Shown one piece after another: positions 13,806 through 21,660 of a DNA stretch of 40,590 nt (position 1 is the first letter of the stretch; each line of letters starts with the position of its first letter). This DNA comes from an uncultured Opitutia bacterium. Its GTDB lineage: Bacteria; Verrucomicrobiota; Verrucomicrobiia; Opitutales; CAJWYM01. Both the position numbers and the translations under genes were made by a program. Location of the stretch: contig CAJWYM010000031.1 in the NCBI GenBank assembly GCA_913049555.1, forward strand, positions 1-40,590. The letters are read 5' to 3'. The notes under the pieces are model-generated. The model saw nothing but the letters and a program-made list of their open reading frames with translations, did no database searches and was not told the DNA's origin.

Positions 13806-15017
13806 ATGGCGATGGAAACAATCTCAGATAAAAAACTAGACAACCGTCCTGATGACTTAGAGGTGAAGGATGCCCACTTGATTTTTAATCATGTTTGGAA
13901 TGAATTGGTCGATGAATACGGCGAAGATCACCTTTGTTTTCCTAAGGAAATATTTTGGTTGAATGGTGCGCCTGGATCCGGAAAAGGAACCCACACTCGA
14001 TTCATTATGGATTTAAGAGATATGATGCAGGAGCCGGTTGTTGTCAGTTCTCTTTTAAAGAGTCCCCAGGCTAAAAAGATGATTGATGCGGGGATGCTTG
14101 TGGGTGATAAGGATGTAGTAGGTTTGGTTTTTCGAAAGTTATTGGAAGCGCAATACGAAAAAGGAGCTATTGTGGATGGTTTTCCTCGCACGAAGGTTCA
14201 AGTAGAATGTCTGAAGCTTTTGCATGCCCGATTGAATCAATTGCGACTTAAATATCTAGATACTTTGCGAGAGTCCTTATTTCCTAAACCGCAATTTCAT
14301 ATTATTGTTTTATTCATTGACGAAAAAGAAAGTGTGGCGCGTCAGGTAAAGCGTGGTAGAAAGATGATTGAGCACAATGAGAAAGTAAAACTCTCTGGTA
14401 TGGGGGAGCTTATTGAGGTTCGAGTTACAGATTTGGATGAGAATACGACACGCAACCGTTATCGAACGTTTAAGGAGCAAACTTATGACTCTTTGACTAC
14501 TTTGAGGGAGTTGTTTCATTATCATTTTGTCAGTGCCCATGGATCCATCGCGAATGTCCAAGAGAGAATTATTGATGAGTTGAAATACCAAAGTTCATTG
14601 GAGTTGAACCAAGATACCTACGATCGACTTTCAATCATTCCAATTTCGGACACTTTAGCGACTCACGCCCGCCAAGAATTGATCACTCGGTTGGAAAATT
14701 ATGAAAAGGTACATACGGTTCTTTTTAAGCGGGTGGTTGATTTAATAAACAGTAAGTTCATCCCAATTATTCGTAGGCATGCAATTTCTGGTACTGCGAT
14801 TATCAACTCTGAAAACAATGTTTTTGAGGAGCCCATTGCGTTGACTATTTTGTTGGATGTATTCTCTGAGAGAGGCTACCATGCCACTATTGACATAAAC
14901 AAAGTTCAAGTCCCGGATACGATCGATCCGAAAACTTTCAAGATCACTTGCAAAGTCAAAAAGGTTTACAGCGTTAGAGTTCGCTTTCAAGGGTCTGAAA
15001 TTCGCCGAGGTCATTAA
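13806..15017 (+). CDS. Long adenylate kinase-like nucleoside monophosphate kinase
   Basis: A 403-aa protein with an adenylate kinase core at about residues 45-265. The P-loop GAPGSGKGT is at 54-62, VVSSLL marks the NMP-binding region, and VDGFPRT (123-129) is the adenylate kinase signature. RQVKRGRK and a later NRYRTF-type arginine segment correspond to the lid and catalytic arginines. Normal bacterial Adk is about 215 aa. Here there are about 45 extra N-terminal residues and a 140-residue C-terminal extension that I cannot assign. Expected reaction: ATP + AMP to 2 ADP, or a related monophosphate. It is followed 20 bp later by an aminopeptidase on the same strand. Whether it is the cell's only Adk cannot be told. 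Confidence 0.85.
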
Positions 15018-15037
15018 ATCTTGTTATTATTGTTACC

Positions 15038-16150
15038 ATGAATTCCAATTATTATAAATTAGCAAAGGTTCTGACCCAATTTTCAACAAATTTAAAAGAA
15101 GGGGATCGGGTATTGATTGATGTTTTAGAGACGCCCGAGGAAATGGTGGTTGCTCTAATCCGAGAAGCGAGAAAATTGGGTGCGATACCGTTTGTTAATA
15201 TTCAGCAAAGTGTGGTTTCTCGTGAATTGTTTATGGATGCCAGTGAGGGTCAATTTCATATTGCGAGTCAATGGGAACTTGCACGCATGAAAAAAATGGA
15301 TGCGTATATAGCCATTCGAGGATCCAACAATATCTTTGAACAATCAGATGTTTCTGCGCAGAAAATGAGTTTGGCGATGCGAGAAATGAAACCTGTTCTG
15401 GATTGGCGGGTGAAGAAGACTCGTTGGGTCGTTCTTCGCTGGCCTACTTCTGCTATGGCCCAGCAGGCAGGTATGAGCACGGAAGCTTTTGAAGACTTTT
15501 ATTTTAAAGTTTGCACGCTTGATTATTCAAAGATGATTCCAGGTATGGATGCTTTGAAAATTCTTATGGAAAAGACGGACCAAGTTTTTATAAAAGGACC
15601 TGGCACCCATCTAAAATTTTCAATCAAAGGCATTCCTGCCATCCCTTGTGGAGGCAATTACAACATCCCTGATGGGGAGGTTTTTTCTTGTCCCATTAAA
15701 GACAGCGTTGAGGGAACCATCACTTTCAACGCTCCGACTACTTATCAGGGTAAATCTTTCGACAACATTCAGTTGACTTTTAGTAAGGGCAAGATTGTCA
15801 AAGCAACTTCAAGTGACTCAGTAAGTTTGAACAATATTTTAGACTCTGATGAGGGCGCTCGTTACATTGGTGAGTTTGCAATTGCTTTCAATCCCTACAT
15901 TCAAGAACCTATGAGAGATATTTTATTTGATGAAAAAATCTGTGGTTCTTTTCACTTTACACCGGGTCAGGCTTATGAGGAAGCGGACAATGGGAATAAA
16001 TCTCAAGTGCATTGGGATATGGTTTCCATTCAAAGGCCTGAGTATGGTGGAGGCGAAATTTATTTTGACAATCAATTGATCCGTAAAGAAGGTTTGTTTT
16101 TACCCACGGCTCTACAGAAGCTGAATCCGGAATTTCTGATCAAAGATTAG
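15038..16150 (+). CDS. M29-family metalloaminopeptidase (AmpS/leucyl aminopeptidase type)
   Basis: A 370-aa cytoplasmic peptidase. The metal ligands expected for family M29 are present in order: Glu214 ([11 protein letters not shown]), Glu279 ([10 protein letters not shown]), His306 (GSFHFTPG), and His325 with Asp327 (QVHWDMVS). The N-terminal half has the Rossmann-like layout of the family ([24 protein letters not shown]). Family members remove N-terminal residues using two divalent metals. It lies 20 bp after the adenylate kinase-like gene, so probably in the same transcript. A 7-bp hairpin follows the stop codon. Confidence 0.93.
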
Positions 16151-16992: not shown

Positions 16993-18015
16993 ATGTCTAT
17001 CGCGGGAGCAAACGCAAGTAAAGGATCATTAAGAACTGAATTTGAACAGTTATTTGACTGTGTTCAACCCTTTCAATCCGCTTTATCTCTTTTTATCGAG
17101 GAGGAAGTAAAGAATTTTGAGGACGAAATTCGTTCCGCAGTACATTATTGCTTTCAGGGTGGGGGAAAAAGAATTCGTCCAACACTGGTTTATTTGAGTG
17201 GTGTGAACGATCTTGGTTCCTACACAACCGACATGGTAAAAGCTTCGGCTGTTATAGAAATGATCCATGTTGCCACTCTTGTCCATGATGATATTTTGGA
17301 TGATGCGGATACCCGTCATGGTAAGGATTCTGTTTCTGCCAAATTTGGGTCCGACGCTGCTGTATTGATTGGAGACGCTATTTTTGCCCACGCGTTGAAG
17401 TTGGCAGCTAGTTTTCCAACGACTGCTGTTTGTTCTGCTGTAGCTCAAGCGACCCGAAGGGTATGTGCTGGGGAAATTGCCCAAACTTATCAAAGAGGAG
17501 AAGTGAATTACTCTCTTAAAAATTATTTTAGAATCATCGATTTAAAGACAGCAGAACTTTTCCGGGTTGCTTGTTTTCTGGGTGCTCATGTAACTGAAAA
17601 AGGGCCTATAATTGAGAAGGCCTACGGGGATTTTGGACGTCATCTTGGTTTGGCTTATCAAATGTTTGATGATTTGGTGGATCTTCTTGGAGATGAAAAT
17701 GAAATTGGAAAAACGCTCGGCACGGATTTAATCAGCGGTAAATATACTTTGCCAGTCATTTTGTTGCTGAATCGCATGTCTGAAAAGGAGGCTGCTGTTT
17801 TATTGAATCGTTTGAAATCTCAAGAAGAGGGTGCTGTTAAAGAGTTGAGGCAGTCTATTGGATCTCATTCTGTTCTGGCTGAAGTTGCGAGCCTTTTCAA
17901 TGAGAAGATCTCTCAAGCCAGGAAGGCTTTAGACTCTACAGGAGGTGGCAGTGATCAGATGCAATCTTTGTGTGACTTTGTTGAAAATCAAGGACGAAAA
18001 GTTCTCTTAATCTAA
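16993..18015 (+). CDS. Trans-polyprenyl diphosphate synthase (octaprenyl/IspB-like)
   Basis: A 340-aa enzyme that chain-extends allylic diphosphates with isopentenyl diphosphate, most likely for a quinone side chain. Motifs in order: GGGKRIRP (57-64), first Asp-rich motif HDDILDDADTRHG (DDxxD at 99-103), and second motif YQMFDDLVDLLGD (DDxxD at 227-231), followed by GKTLGTDLISGKYTLP, which is typical of long-chain synthases. Product chain length cannot be read reliably. It is first in a tight run with pdxA, the IscA-type gene and a channel gene. Confidence 0.9.
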   Translation: MSIAGANASKGSLRTEFEQLFDCVQPFQSALSLFIEEEVKNFEDEIRSAVHYCFQGGGKRIRPTLVYLSGVNDLGSYTTDMVKASAVIEMIHVATLVHDDILDDADTRHGKDSVSAKFGSDAAVLIGDAIFAHALKLAASFPTTAVCSAVAQATRRVCAGEIAQTYQRGEVNYSLKNYFRIIDLKTAELFRVACFLGAHVTEKGPIIEKAYGDFGRHLGLAYQMFDDLVDLLGDENEIGKTLGTDLISGKYTLPVILLLNRMSEKEAAVLLNRLKSQEEGAVKELRQSIGSHSVLAEVASLFNEKISQARKALDSTGGGSDQMQSLCDFVENQGRKVLLI

Positions 18016-18024
18016 TTCTTCCGC

Positions 18025-18948
18025 ATGAAAAAGATTGCGGTTACTATGGGCGATCCCTCAGGCACAGGTCCTGAAATTGCTGAAAAATATTTCTCCGATT
18101 CCTCTGTGGACTCAGATCGTTTTTGTCTGATAGGCCCTCGATCCTTGAAGAGTCGTTTCCTGTCTTTAGTAGACTATATTGGAGTGGGAGCGATTGGTTT
18201 AGAGGCTCAATCAGGGTTACCCAGTGTCGAGGGTTCTAAAACGGCGATCGATGCCCTCAATCTTTCCACAGAAGGATGTTTGAATGGATCCTTCTCCTCG
18301 GTTGTGACCTTGCCAATCTCCAAGGCTTGGATGACTCAGGCAGGTTTTCAGCATCCCGGACACACGGAATATTTTGCGGATCGATGGGGGGGGCAACCGA
18401 CTATGGCTTTTGTTGGGACTCAGATGAAAGTGATTTTATGCAGTTGGCATATTCCTTTAAAAGAGGTTCCAGAGTCCCTCACTCCAGAATCAGTGAATCG
18501 ATCGGTTGCAGTTGCTTATGATTTGGTGAACGCTCTTGGTGGAGTCAATACTCCCAAAATTGCAGTTTGTGGATTGAATCCTCATGCAGGAGAGGGGGGG
18601 CTTTTAGGTCAAGAAGAAGTGGACTTCTTAACTCCTCATTTGGAAGATTTGAAGAATCAATATCCCGGTCTTTCAGGGCCATATCCTGCAGACACAGTTT
18701 TTTGGAGGCATTTAAGGGGTGACTTTGATGTCGTGGTTGCTTTGTATCACGACCAAGGACTGATTCCGCTTAAAACAGTGGAATTTGAAACTGCTGTAAA
18801 TGTAACGATGGGTTTGCCTTTCATTCGGACTAGTCCGGATCATGGGACTGGATTTGACATTGCAGGGAAAGGCATTGCTTCTATAGATAGTTTTTCTCAT
18901 GCTGTGGAGGTGTGTATGCAATTAGAAAGGGCTAAAAATGGTGGTTGA
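18025..18948 (+). CDS. pdxA: 4-hydroxythreonine-4-phosphate dehydrogenase
   Basis: A 307-aa enzyme of pyridoxal 5'-phosphate biosynthesis (DXP-dependent route), which oxidises 4-phosphohydroxy-L-threonine before ring closure by PdxJ. The family start VTMGDPSGTGPEI is clear. HPGHTEYFADRWGG, LNPHAGEGGLLGQEE, ALYHDQGLIPLKT and the C-terminal SPDHGTGFDIAGKG carry the conserved His residues for metal binding. Slightly shorter than E. coli PdxA (329 aa). It begins 9 bp after the polyprenyl synthase stop and overlaps the next gene by 11 bp, which implies co-translation. Confidence 0.95.
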   Translation: MKKIAVTMGDPSGTGPEIAEKYFSDSSVDSDRFCLIGPRSLKSRFLSLVDYIGVGAIGLEAQSGLPSVEGSKTAIDALNLSTEGCLNGSFSSVVTLPISKAWMTQAGFQHPGHTEYFADRWGGQPTMAFVGTQMKVILCSWHIPLKEVPESLTPESVNRSVAVAYDLVNALGGVNTPKIAVCGLNPHAGEGGLLGQEEVDFLTPHLEDLKNQYPGLSGPYPADTVFWRHLRGDFDVVVALYHDQGLIPLKTVEFETAVNVTMGLPFIRTSPDHGTGFDIAGKGIASIDSFSHAVEVCMQLERAKNGG

Positions 18949-19300
18949 TAAAGAAGGAATCCGAGTTGGAAATGAGAAATTGATCAAACTATCGTTGCCT
19001 GCTGGAGAAAAAGTGAATGCTCTTTTAAAAAAAGAATCGGAAGAAACCTTTTTAAGAATCCGTATTTCTGGGGGTGGATGCAATGGATTGAGTTATAAGT
19101 TGAAATTTGATCAGAAAAACAAACCTGGAGATATTCTTGTAATCACTGGGGGTACCGAGGTCGTTGTGGATAAAAAAAGTGCGTTGTATTTGAGGGGCAC
19201 TGCATTGGATTATTCTAACAGTATGATTGGAGGGGGCTTTAAATTTACGAATCCTAATGCCTCTTCGAGTTGTAGTTGTGGAGAGAGTTTTAGTGTGTAA
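18938..19300 (+). CDS. Iron-sulfur carrier/insertion protein of the IscA/ErpA (HesB) family
   Basis: A 120-aa A-type carrier with the three conserved cysteines: Cys48 in SGGGCNGLSY and Cys112 and Cys114 in the C-terminal SCSCGESF. The characteristic GGGFKFTNPNA segment lies before the last pair. Such proteins deliver [2Fe-2S] or [4Fe-4S] clusters to apo-enzymes. The start overlaps the pdxA 3' end by 11 bp, and an AGAAAGG purine stretch (18924-18930) gives a plausible ribosome binding site. Which of IscA, ErpA or SufA it corresponds to cannot be decided here. Confidence 0.93.
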   Translation: MVVDKEGIRVGNEKLIKLSLPAGEKVNALLKKESEETFLRIRISGGGCNGLSYKLKFDQKNKPGDILVITGGTEVVVDKKSALYLRGTALDYSNSMIGGGFKFTNPNASSSCSCGESFSV

Positions 19301-19303
19301 CCC

Positions 19304-20395
19304 ATGTTTAGATCTTCTACATTTTCTTTTGTGCCAAAGTTATTTTTATGCTTGGTTTTTTGGGTTTCTCTCCATGCATCGGAATCGACGAAGCCTTTAA
19401 GAGTTGGAATTAAAGAGGCCCCTCCATTTACGATTAAAGACGTGGATGGAAATTGGAGTGGATTGTGCGTTGATTTATTCAAGGATTTTGCAACTGAAAG
19501 AAATTTCCAATTCGATTGGGTAGAACTCTCATTGAATGAAGTTCTGGTGCAAGTAGCAGACTCTAAAATCGATTTTGGTGTGGCTGCAATTACCGTTACC
19601 GAGGAAAGAGAGAAGAAGTTCGACTTTAGTTTTCCTTTTTACAGTGATGGTTTAGCGATTGCGGTTCGTGATCAATCTTCTGGTGGGCTATGGCCCATTA
19701 TTTTGCGTTTTATCTCTGTAGATTTTCTCACTGCAGTTGCAGCTTTATTAGGGCTTTTACTTGTTTTTGGATTTTTAATTTGGTTGTTTGAAAGACAAAA
19801 GAACAGTGCAGAGTTTGCTAAAAATCCGGTTTCAGGGATTGGTTCTGGTCTTTGGTGGTCTGCAGTAACTATGACCACTGTGGGATACGGAGATAAATCC
19901 CCAAAATCTTTTTTCGGTCGTTTGCTCGCTCTGATTTGGATGTTTGCATCCATTATTGTGATCTCAGGATTTACAGCGAGTATCGCTTCCTCGCTGACTG
20001 TAGATCGCATTACTTATTCGGTGAACAATGCAAATGATCTTTACAAAGTCAAAACAGGAGCAATTGCTGGAACTACAGGGATCCAATACCTGAAAGAATT
20101 TAGAAAAGAATACCTGGCATTCCCAAATCCGAAAACAGCATTGGAGGCATTGAAGGACAAGAGGGTAGAAGCCGTTCTCTACGATCGACCCATACTTTTA
20201 CATGAAATCAATTCCGACCCCGCTCATTTTAATGATCTTTTTTTATTAAAAGACAATATCAATCAAGAAAGCTATGCAATTGCGATTCCAGAGAAAAGCG
20301 AGATGAGAGAAGCTTTGAATCGCTTTATTTTAAAATATATCAATAGCCCATCTTGGTCTTCTATTTTAGAAAAATATCTTGGGCAGGATCTATAA
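19304..20395 (+). CDS. GluR0-like ligand-gated potassium channel (prokaryotic ionotropic glutamate receptor)
   Basis: A 363-aa protein with the iGluR-type layout. A signal peptide (ending near LHASES) precedes binding lobe S1 (about 31-125; VGIKEAPPF, ITVTEEREKKFDFSFPF), TM1 (about 139-161), a pore loop with the potassium filter TVGYGD (192-197), TM2 (about 203-228) and lobe S2 (about 240-363; GTTGIQYLKEF, AVLYDRP). After TM2, SGFTASIASSLTV (221-233) parallels the SYTANLAAFLT gate of animal iGluRs. Arg102 and Asp294 sit where family members bind the ligand's carboxylate and amino groups, suggesting an amino-acid ligand. It is a channel rather than an ABC-transporter binding protein. It starts 3 bp after the IscA-type gene, so it is probably in that transcript, without an obvious functional link. 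Confidence 0.9.
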   Translation: MFRSSTFSFVPKLFLCLVFWVSLHASESTKPLRVGIKEAPPFTIKDVDGNWSGLCVDLFKDFATERNFQFDWVELSLNEVLVQVADSKIDFGVAAITVTEEREKKFDFSFPFYSDGLAIAVRDQSSGGLWPIILRFISVDFLTAVAALLGLLLVFGFLIWLFERQKNSAEFAKNPVSGIGSGLWWSAVTMTTVGYGDKSPKSFFGRLLALIWMFASIIVISGFTASIASSLTVDRITYSVNNANDLYKVKTGAIAGTTGIQYLKEFRKEYLAFPNPKTALEALKDKRVEAVLYDRPILLHEINSDPAHFNDLFLLKDNINQESYAIAIPEKSEMREALNRFILKYINSPSWSSILEKYLGQDL

Positions 20396-20517: not shown

Positions 20518-21660
20518 TCAAATTCCTTGGTAAGTTTTGATCCAGTCTTTGGACCAAGAATCAAAGTCACCCTCTATAATATGCAATCTTGCCTGGTTGA
20601 GTAAATGGATAAAAAAATGAAGGTTATGAAGAGTAATTAATATGGGTGCAAGCATCTCTCCCGCAACAATTAAATGACGAAGGTAGGCTCTGCTAAAATT
20701 CTTACAAGTGTAATTGTCCAGTCCTTCTTCAATAGAGCTTTCATCATATTTGAATTGAACATTTTTTAAATTTATTCTGCCTTTACTAGTAAAAGCTGTG
20801 TTGTGTCTTGCCATTCTACTTGGCATAACACAATCAAACATATCTACGCCGAACCCAATCATTTTTAGCAATTGATCAGGAGTGCCAACCCCCATTGTAT
20901 ATCTTGCCTGGTCTTGTGGGAGTAATGGAGCCGTCCATTCTACTTGTCTCAATAATTCTTCTTCAGGCTCACCAACACTTACCCCTCCAATTGCGTAGCC
21001 AGAAAATCCGATTTCTTGAAGTCCCTCTGCACATGTTTTGCGTAGATCATCATAGGTAGAGCCTTGGACAATCCCAAAAACGTGATAGCCTTGTTCAAAA
21101 AGACCTTTGTCTTGCCAGAATTGCTTGGATACTTTTGCCCAATCTAAAGTCCTTCTATTTGCATGGATTGCATCTTTTCTTGAGCATCCGGCTGGAGGAC
21201 ATTCATCGAGTACCATAGCTATGTCAGAGCCAAGATTGGCTTGAATTTGTAAGGATTCTTTCGGCCCTAAAAAAACTTTTTCACCATTGATATGAGACCT
21301 AAAGTGAACGCCTTCTTCTGTTAGTTTTCTTAACTTGGCTAAACTAAAGACTTGGAATCCGCCACTGTCTGTAAGAATTGGTTGGTCCCAATTCATGAAA
21401 TTGTGGAGTCCTCCCATTTTAGCAATAAGCTCTGATTTCGGACGCAGGTTGAGGTGATAAGTATTGCTTAAGATTACTTGGCTCCCGATTTCTTTTAAAT
21501 CTTTGGGCAACATTCCTTTTACAGTAGCTTGAGTGCCAACAGGCATAAAAACTGGAGTTTGAATGACACCATGTGGAGTTTTTATCTTACCAGCTCGTGC
21601 TTGAGTTTTGTTGTCTTTAGCACACACGCTAAAGTTTTTTGGAATTGGATTGTTACTCAT
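20518..21660 (-). CDS. tgt: tRNA-guanine (queuine) transglycosylase with incomplete zinc site
   Basis: A 380-aa enzyme that exchanges guanine-34 of GUN-anticodon tRNAs for preQ1. Conserved features: NTYHLNLRP, Asp98 (general base, TDSGGFQ), IVQGSTYDDLR, GYAIGGVSVGE, and Asp276 (nucleophile, VDMFDCVMPSR). The usual zinc site is C-x-C-x2-C followed 26 residues later by His. Here only Cys319 and His345 remain: the first two cysteines are Leu314 and Asn316 (EEGLDNYTC). The rest is well kept, so this may be a lineage variant that is metal-free or uses other ligands. It is divergent from valS across 128 bp. Confidence 0.93.
   Translation of the reverse strand: MSNNPIPKNFSVCAKDNKTQARAGKIKTPHGVIQTPVFMPVGTQATVKGMLPKDLKEIGSQVILSNTYHLNLRPKSELIAKMGGLHNFMNWDQPILTDSGGFQVFSLAKLRKLTEEGVHFRSHINGEKVFLGPKESLQIQANLGSDIAMVLDECPPAGCSRKDAIHANRRTLDWAKVSKQFWQDKGLFEQGYHVFGIVQGSTYDDLRKTCAEGLQEIGFSGYAIGGVSVGEPEEELLRQVEWTAPLLPQDQARYTMGVGTPDQLLKMIGFGVDMFDCVMPSRMARHNTAFTSKGRINLKNVQFKYDESSIEEGLDNYTCKNFSRAYLRHLIVAGEMLAPILITLHNLHFFIHLLNQARLHIIEGDFDSWSKDWIKTYQGI

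Follow-up and report, generated by a model that had tools for sequence, protein, structure and literature searches.

A stretch of 40,590 nucleotides from an uncultured Opitutia bacterium (contig CAJWYM010000031.1; the whole stretch is hereafter the window) carries at 19304-20395 a gene in which an initial annotation, made from the letters alone, saw a ligand-gated potassium channel of the GluR0 type, oddly placed behind an IscA-type gene. The locus thus raises two questions: whether the encoded protein is such a channel, and whether its position ties it to the genes that precede it.

Layout and domains of the channel protein

The gene is a single intact ORF of 363 codons (363 aa) on the forward strand, running from an ATG at 19304 to a TAA stop at 20393-20395. 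Its parts are as follows.

19304-20395 (+): GluR0-type channel gene, 363 aa (ORF; Pfam SBP_bac_3, Lig_chan and Ion_trans_2; fold match to 1ii5 and 2pyy)
19304-19378 (+): predicted signal peptide, residues 1-25 (hydropathic stretch 5-25; low-confidence and disordered in the model)
19391-19684 (+): S1 lobe, residues ~30-127, holding F42, T97 and R102 (aligns to 2pyy 3-100; model strands and helices 32-122)
19718-19792 (+): TM1, residues 139-163 (model helix; hydropathic stretch 128-165)
19826-19876 (+): pore helix, residues 175-191 (model helix)
19877-19894 (+): selectivity filter TVGYGD, residues 192-197 (invariant in 25/25 aligned rows and 22/22 loci of the window's order)
19910-19999 (+): TM2, residues 203-232, with the terminal ASIASSLT (225-232) as gate region (model helix; S221, T224 and T232 invariant)
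20024-20383 (+): S2 lobe, residues ~241-360, holding T257, T258 and D294 (aligns to 2pyy 105-221; model)

Three Pfam domains lie above their cut-offs, so this is not a chance ORF: SBP_bac_3 gives the best match (4.4e-24, residues 32-361 in two halves), and both Lig_chan (8.7e-18) and Ion_trans_2 (8.5e-14) exceed their curated cut-offs, the latter together with TVGYGD, the selectivity filter of K+ channels. Hydropathy marks three stretches, at residues 5-25 (signal peptide), 128-165 (TM1) and 201-233 (TM2). Across the ORF, the Pfam domains, the hydropathy and the model described below, the complete receptor layout that had been claimed (S1-TM1-TVGYGD pore-TM2-S2) is borne out. Two related classes were considered and excluded, namely Group 2 prokaryotic glutamate receptors, whose pore loop is without the K+ signature, by the presence of TVGYGD, and the ABC amino-acid solute-binding proteins (GlnH equivalog) by a score of 79.2 bits against a cut-off of 303.

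A solute-binding protein that serves transport and is no channel would account for SBP_bac_3 being the top Pfam match, and plasmid-borne relatives are indeed automatically annotated as ‘transporter substrate-binding domain-containing protein’. We nevertheless regard this as most improbable: pore helix, filter and TM2 are all intact and split the lobes, the retention of TVGYGD at all 22 channel loci of the order argues against a plain solute-binding protein, and no neighbouring family, permease or other, recurs beyond close kin in flanks of 1.5 to 4 kb.

The loops on either side of the pore helix carry a net positive charge (mean +1.04 for TM1-P and +1.16 for P-TM2 over the 25 aligned rows, a small bias), set against +0.28 and +0.24 for the stretches at the end of S1 and the start of S2. 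These charges, small as the bias is, fit cytoplasmic pore loops such as those of GluR0, which is described in PMC13099474 as a plasma-membrane protein of inverted topology with both lobes outside. Together with the N-terminal hydrophobic stretch, the weak positive charge of the pore loops agrees with the same topology for the window protein, whose lobes would then lie outside.

Predicted fold and ligand pocket

The AlphaFold2 model, built from the 25 aligned sequences, has a mean pLDDT of 87.5 and a pTM of 0.71, and its helices at 139-163, 175-191 and 203-232 correspond to TM1, the pore helix and TM2. The joined lobes form a clamshell, the absence of which would have spoken against a receptor, and this ligand-binding domain (LBD) matches 1ii5 and 2pyy. 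The top match in the structure search was the Synechocystis GluR0 core with glutamate (1ii5; Z 28.3, 1.9 A, 218 residues), with an engineered glutamine-binding protein (8eyz, Z 27.6) less than one Z below it and the Nostoc core (2pyy; Z 27.2, 2.1 A, 213 residues) at rank four; ranks less than one Z apart count as ties. By single-sequence search the closest PDB entry was 2pyy, the core of the Nostoc GluR0 homologue (3.1e-28). A profile built on the 25-protein alignment placed the tandem glutamine-binding ABC protein 6h30 first and 2pyy second, an order that is expected since such lobes are common to solute-binding proteins. The 50 best rows from Foldseek were animal glutamate receptors (AMPA), aligned over the full protein (~370 columns) with TMq of 0.51-0.68.

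The alignment comprises 25 full-length proteins, i.e. the window protein and 24 relatives that are 34-42% identical to it. Invariant in all 25 are P41, F42, A95, R102, T192-D197, S221, T224, T232 and D294, while T or S occupies position 97 in 23 proteins, 257 in all 25 and 258 in 20. R102 is part of TEERE, D294 of YDRP; these two residues, proposed at the outset as likely ligand contacts, prove to be correctly numbered as well as invariant. The gate proposed at ASIASSLT also holds, its letters between the fixed T224 and T232 varying conservatively over the 25 rows.

We name the ligand contacts after residue roles in GluA2, which we take to carry over to the window protein. Alignment with the structures suggests a cap aromatic, contacts for the carboxylate and the amine, and a side-chain site. 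We judge with good confidence that the ligand would be an alpha-amino acid; glutamate may be the best one, at slightly worse than even chances. The pocket does not reveal which one it is: relatives differ at and around position 258, and the lobes are matched almost as closely by amino-acid-binding proteins as by GluR0.

Could the lobes have ceased to bind amino acids, serving assembly alone in a K+ channel that leaks or responds to stretch? PMC13099474 suggests that GluR0 might respond to membrane tension and reports that its K+ uptake needs lobe dimerisation; the ligand of the window protein is, for its part, a putative one. We consider this unlikely, as the retention of F42, R102 and D294 in 25/25 proteins of 34-42% identity is hard to explain without binding. 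The GluR0-type identity, in short the claim from which we started, is supported by sequence, predicted fold and conservation, and we think it likely that the gene encodes a stand-alone channel subunit of the GluR0 kind, gated by an amino acid and selective for K+.

Gene order and spread among relatives

Immediately upstream of the channel lie three genes on the same strand, the four being separated by tiny gaps or overlaps.

16993-18015 (+): polyprenyl synthetase (PF00348, 1.8e-62), 9 bases upstream of pdxA
18025-18948 (+): pdxA (TIGR00557, 321 bits, above cut-off), with an 11-base overlap with the called start of the next ORF
18938-19300 (+): IscA/ErpA/SufA-like gene (TIGR00049, 115 bits against a cut-off of 58.8)

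The IscA-type protein passes the TIGR00049 subfamily model and falls below the equivalog cut-offs for ErpA, SufA and IscA alike. Its ORF ends at 19300, confirming the 3 bp spacing to the channel ATG that had been noted. The nearest GGAG lies 20 bases upstream of that ATG, too distant for an ordinary ribosome site, and translation of the channel is therefore probably coupled. Neither promoter-like matches (5 against 8.6 expected) nor terminators exceeded chance in a scan of the region, and no tRNA or Rfam match was found in the window. Elsewhere in the window, tgt (queuine tRNA-ribosyltransferase; 20518-21660, -) is convergent with the channel gene and ends 122 bases past it, and 13806-16150 holds a 403 aa protein followed 20 bases on by an M29 aminopeptidase; the 403 aa protein has an adenylate kinase domain at residues 53-143 only (AAA_17 to 182), the remainder having no Pfam match.

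A channel on the same strand, 3 bp past iscA, with probably coupled translation and with promoter-like matches at chance level, is what one would see if pdxA, iscA and the channel formed a functional operon tying amino-acid sensing or K+ flux to PLP/Fe-S supply. Gene order was compared at the level of the window's taxonomic order, among genomes from outside the window's own family and genus. The pair itself is common: of the 70 order genomes in which both genes were entered, at least 43 have a TIGR00049 gene on the same strand as pdxA and no more than 1 kb past it. The channel stands directly behind the pair in the window's genome only (0/21 other channel-bearing genomes), so at this depth the check on whether this order is conserved in relatives came out negative. 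The pair is intact elsewhere in seven of those 21 genomes, and the nearest approaches to a channel gene are a TIGR00049 gene at ~12.5 kb (G082) and ~15.4 kb (G103) and a pdxA at ~34 kb (G021). Three of the 22 channel-bearing genomes have no TIGR00049 row, and the fetched flanks of the other channel loci contain no pdxA or iscA homologue.

When the ORFs flanking the window's channel and 41 further channel loci were clustered (flanks of 1.5 kb, up to 4 kb for named genomes), again no neighbour proved widely shared. The largest real clusters hold four and three loci, mostly close kin; in one cluster of three (L041, L052, L066) an Alcanivorax is joined with two genomes of the window's order. Apparent clusters of 26 and 16 ‘loci’ were set aside, as their positions suggest ORFs antisense to the channel gene. 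In three Halieaceae loci (Haliea and Halioglobus; L044:1563-2312, L045:1066-1815, L047:1020-1769) a second ORF lies ~1.7-2.2 kb before the channel and reads like an amino-acid-binding protein.

On the compared positions of channel, pdxA and TIGR00049 genes and on the ORF clustering, we reject the link by gene order, and a functional operon is in our estimate scarcely credible: the pair is conserved without the channel, which sits elsewhere in 21 of the 22 genomes that bear it. Very unlikely, too, are two bolder readings. In one, the channel was captured in this lineage into the polyprenyl synthetase-pdxA-iscA unit and would be dose-coupled to cofactor synthesis, a periplasmic amino acid gating K+ flux in step with PLP/Fe-S demand; in the other, its pocket, which sits on a long branch with no near relatives, would recognise a ligand other than glutamate. 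The placement behind pdxA-iscA instead looks accidental, a one-off in the window's genome for which the gene orders compared give no hint of a connection in function, and this accounts for its having seemed odd.

Counting full-length relatives with E of at most 1e-40, the channel turns up in 22 of the 156 genomes sampled from the order, the window's own included, and in 30 of the 387 sampled from the phylum. The 19 named loci (18 full-length, one truncated) belong to Planctomycetota, Pseudomonadota, one Verrucomicrobiales and one unclassified bacterium. The description of such receptors as rare outside cyanobacteria is thus overstated, given these phylum-wide counts and the named loci from Planctomycetota, Pseudomonadota and Verrucomicrobiota, while ‘little studied’ fits the literature examined. 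The family is patchy, with no neighbour conserved past close kin. A match elsewhere in the window's genome (G000:C3) is no second copy of the channel; it lies in a separate ORF of 233 aa, which reads as a K+ channel of the voltage-gated type. One channel match in another genome (G303:C1:1926663-1927715) contains a single in-frame TAG, which may point to a copy in decay or to an error of sequencing.

Six of 50,697 phage records gave partial matches, none covering 80% of the channel, and 23 of 94 matching plasmid records cover at least 80% of it. In the trees the window protein lies on a long branch outside any well-supported clade, and rows from its order are interspersed with those of other phyla; both trees also place L039, the named Verrucomicrobiales protein, within the window's order. 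No donor or origin can be named for the window channel, owing to this long branch and to a letter make-up unlike that of the other rows. The mixed tree and the plasmid-borne relatives would fit transfer between lineages, as proposed for the family by Ger et al. (PMC2950845). Its scatter across phyla and the lack of any conserved neighbour point to a sensor channel that is self-contained and transferable.

Three translated plasmid-borne relatives (Rhizobium tumorigenes, Kovacikia and Agrobacterium) are without TVGYGD and branch outside the 40 TVGYGD rows. That of R. tumorigenes plasmid pRt932 (L073:2378-3499) is full-length and, at 38% identity, as near to the window protein as many filter-bearing relatives; it keeps the lobes and TM helices, has QASTGHRG in the position of the filter, and stands just outside all 40 TVGYGD rows (97/89), far nearer than the other two. 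It may represent an intermediate form linking receptors of the K+ and non-K+ types. This relative belongs to neither the 22 loci of the order nor the 25 aligned proteins, and within those two sets the pore loss that would have told against the channel was not seen.

Proposed mechanism and known systems

We propose that the signal peptide takes the protein across the inner membrane, leaving the S1-S2 clamshell in the periplasm, and that subunits would assemble as a tetramer. An L-alpha-amino acid, at best guess polar and glutamate-like, would bind between S1 and S2, where R102 and T97 would hold its alpha-carboxylate, D294 its alpha-amine, F42 would cover it and T257/T258 would face its side chain. 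By analogy, the amino acid very probably opens the channel: lobe closure would pull on the TM2 ends, opening the inverted pore, and the TVGYGD filter would pass K+. That a K+ pore can be gated by a fused glutamate receptor lobe is described in PMC6385376, and PMC13099474 reports that GluR0 mediates K+ uptake in E. coli LB2003, with both soluble lobes required, and slows cell shrinkage following KCl shock. The cell might use the channel for fast K+ flux upon the appearance of free periplasmic amino acid, e.g. in osmotic or ionic adjustment, a role that we carry over from this single cyanobacterial study. The pdxA-iscA neighbours would probably lend it transcription and translation only.

Compared with known systems, the lobes share their fold and amino-acid site with glutamine-binding proteins (GlnH; 1wdn, Z 25.6), which are soluble carriers and, unlike the window protein, have no pore. 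The AMPA, kainate and NMDA receptors of animals have the same core topology and a gate region (SYTANLAAF) that resembles the one in the window protein, whereas the latter is without the amino-terminal domain and M4, has a K+-type filter and is only ~20% identical. GluR0 of Synechocystis PCC 6803 (slr1257; 1ii5, 1iit, 1iiw) shares with it the order signal peptide-S1-TM1-P-TM2-S2, the K+-type filter, the LBD fold (Z 28.3, as above) and a similar motif around the conserved Asp (FDRP in GluR0, YDRP in the window protein); the two are 24% identical over the LBD and differ at the side-chain site (DTT and GTT, respectively). The Nostoc punctiforme GluR0 core 2pyy, a PDB entry of the LBD only, has the same Arg, Asp and PPF positions and is 31% identical over the LBD.

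The nearest described class is Group 1 of the prokaryotic glutamate receptors, which makes up 12 of the 22 putative channels of Ger et al. (2010; PMC2950845) and in which S1 and S2 flank two TM helices with a K+ filter, an Arg in S1 and an Asp in S2. The window protein has the flanking lobes, the K+ filter, R102/D294 and the clamshell, with no difference in kind, and is an additional potassium-type prokaryotic glutamate receptor of the Group 1 described in 2010. The main text of that paper names cyanobacteria and proteobacteria, the words Verrucomicrobia and Planctomycetes being absent from it, and no study of such a channel from either phylum was found in the literature covered, which takes in few subscription papers. 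Among the literature examined, a natural role of the family is reported from one cyanobacterium only (PMC13099474). The gain from the window gene alone is small, its layout and residues being as expected; with it, one more lineage joins a family regarded as similar to the ancestor of the glutamate receptors of animals.
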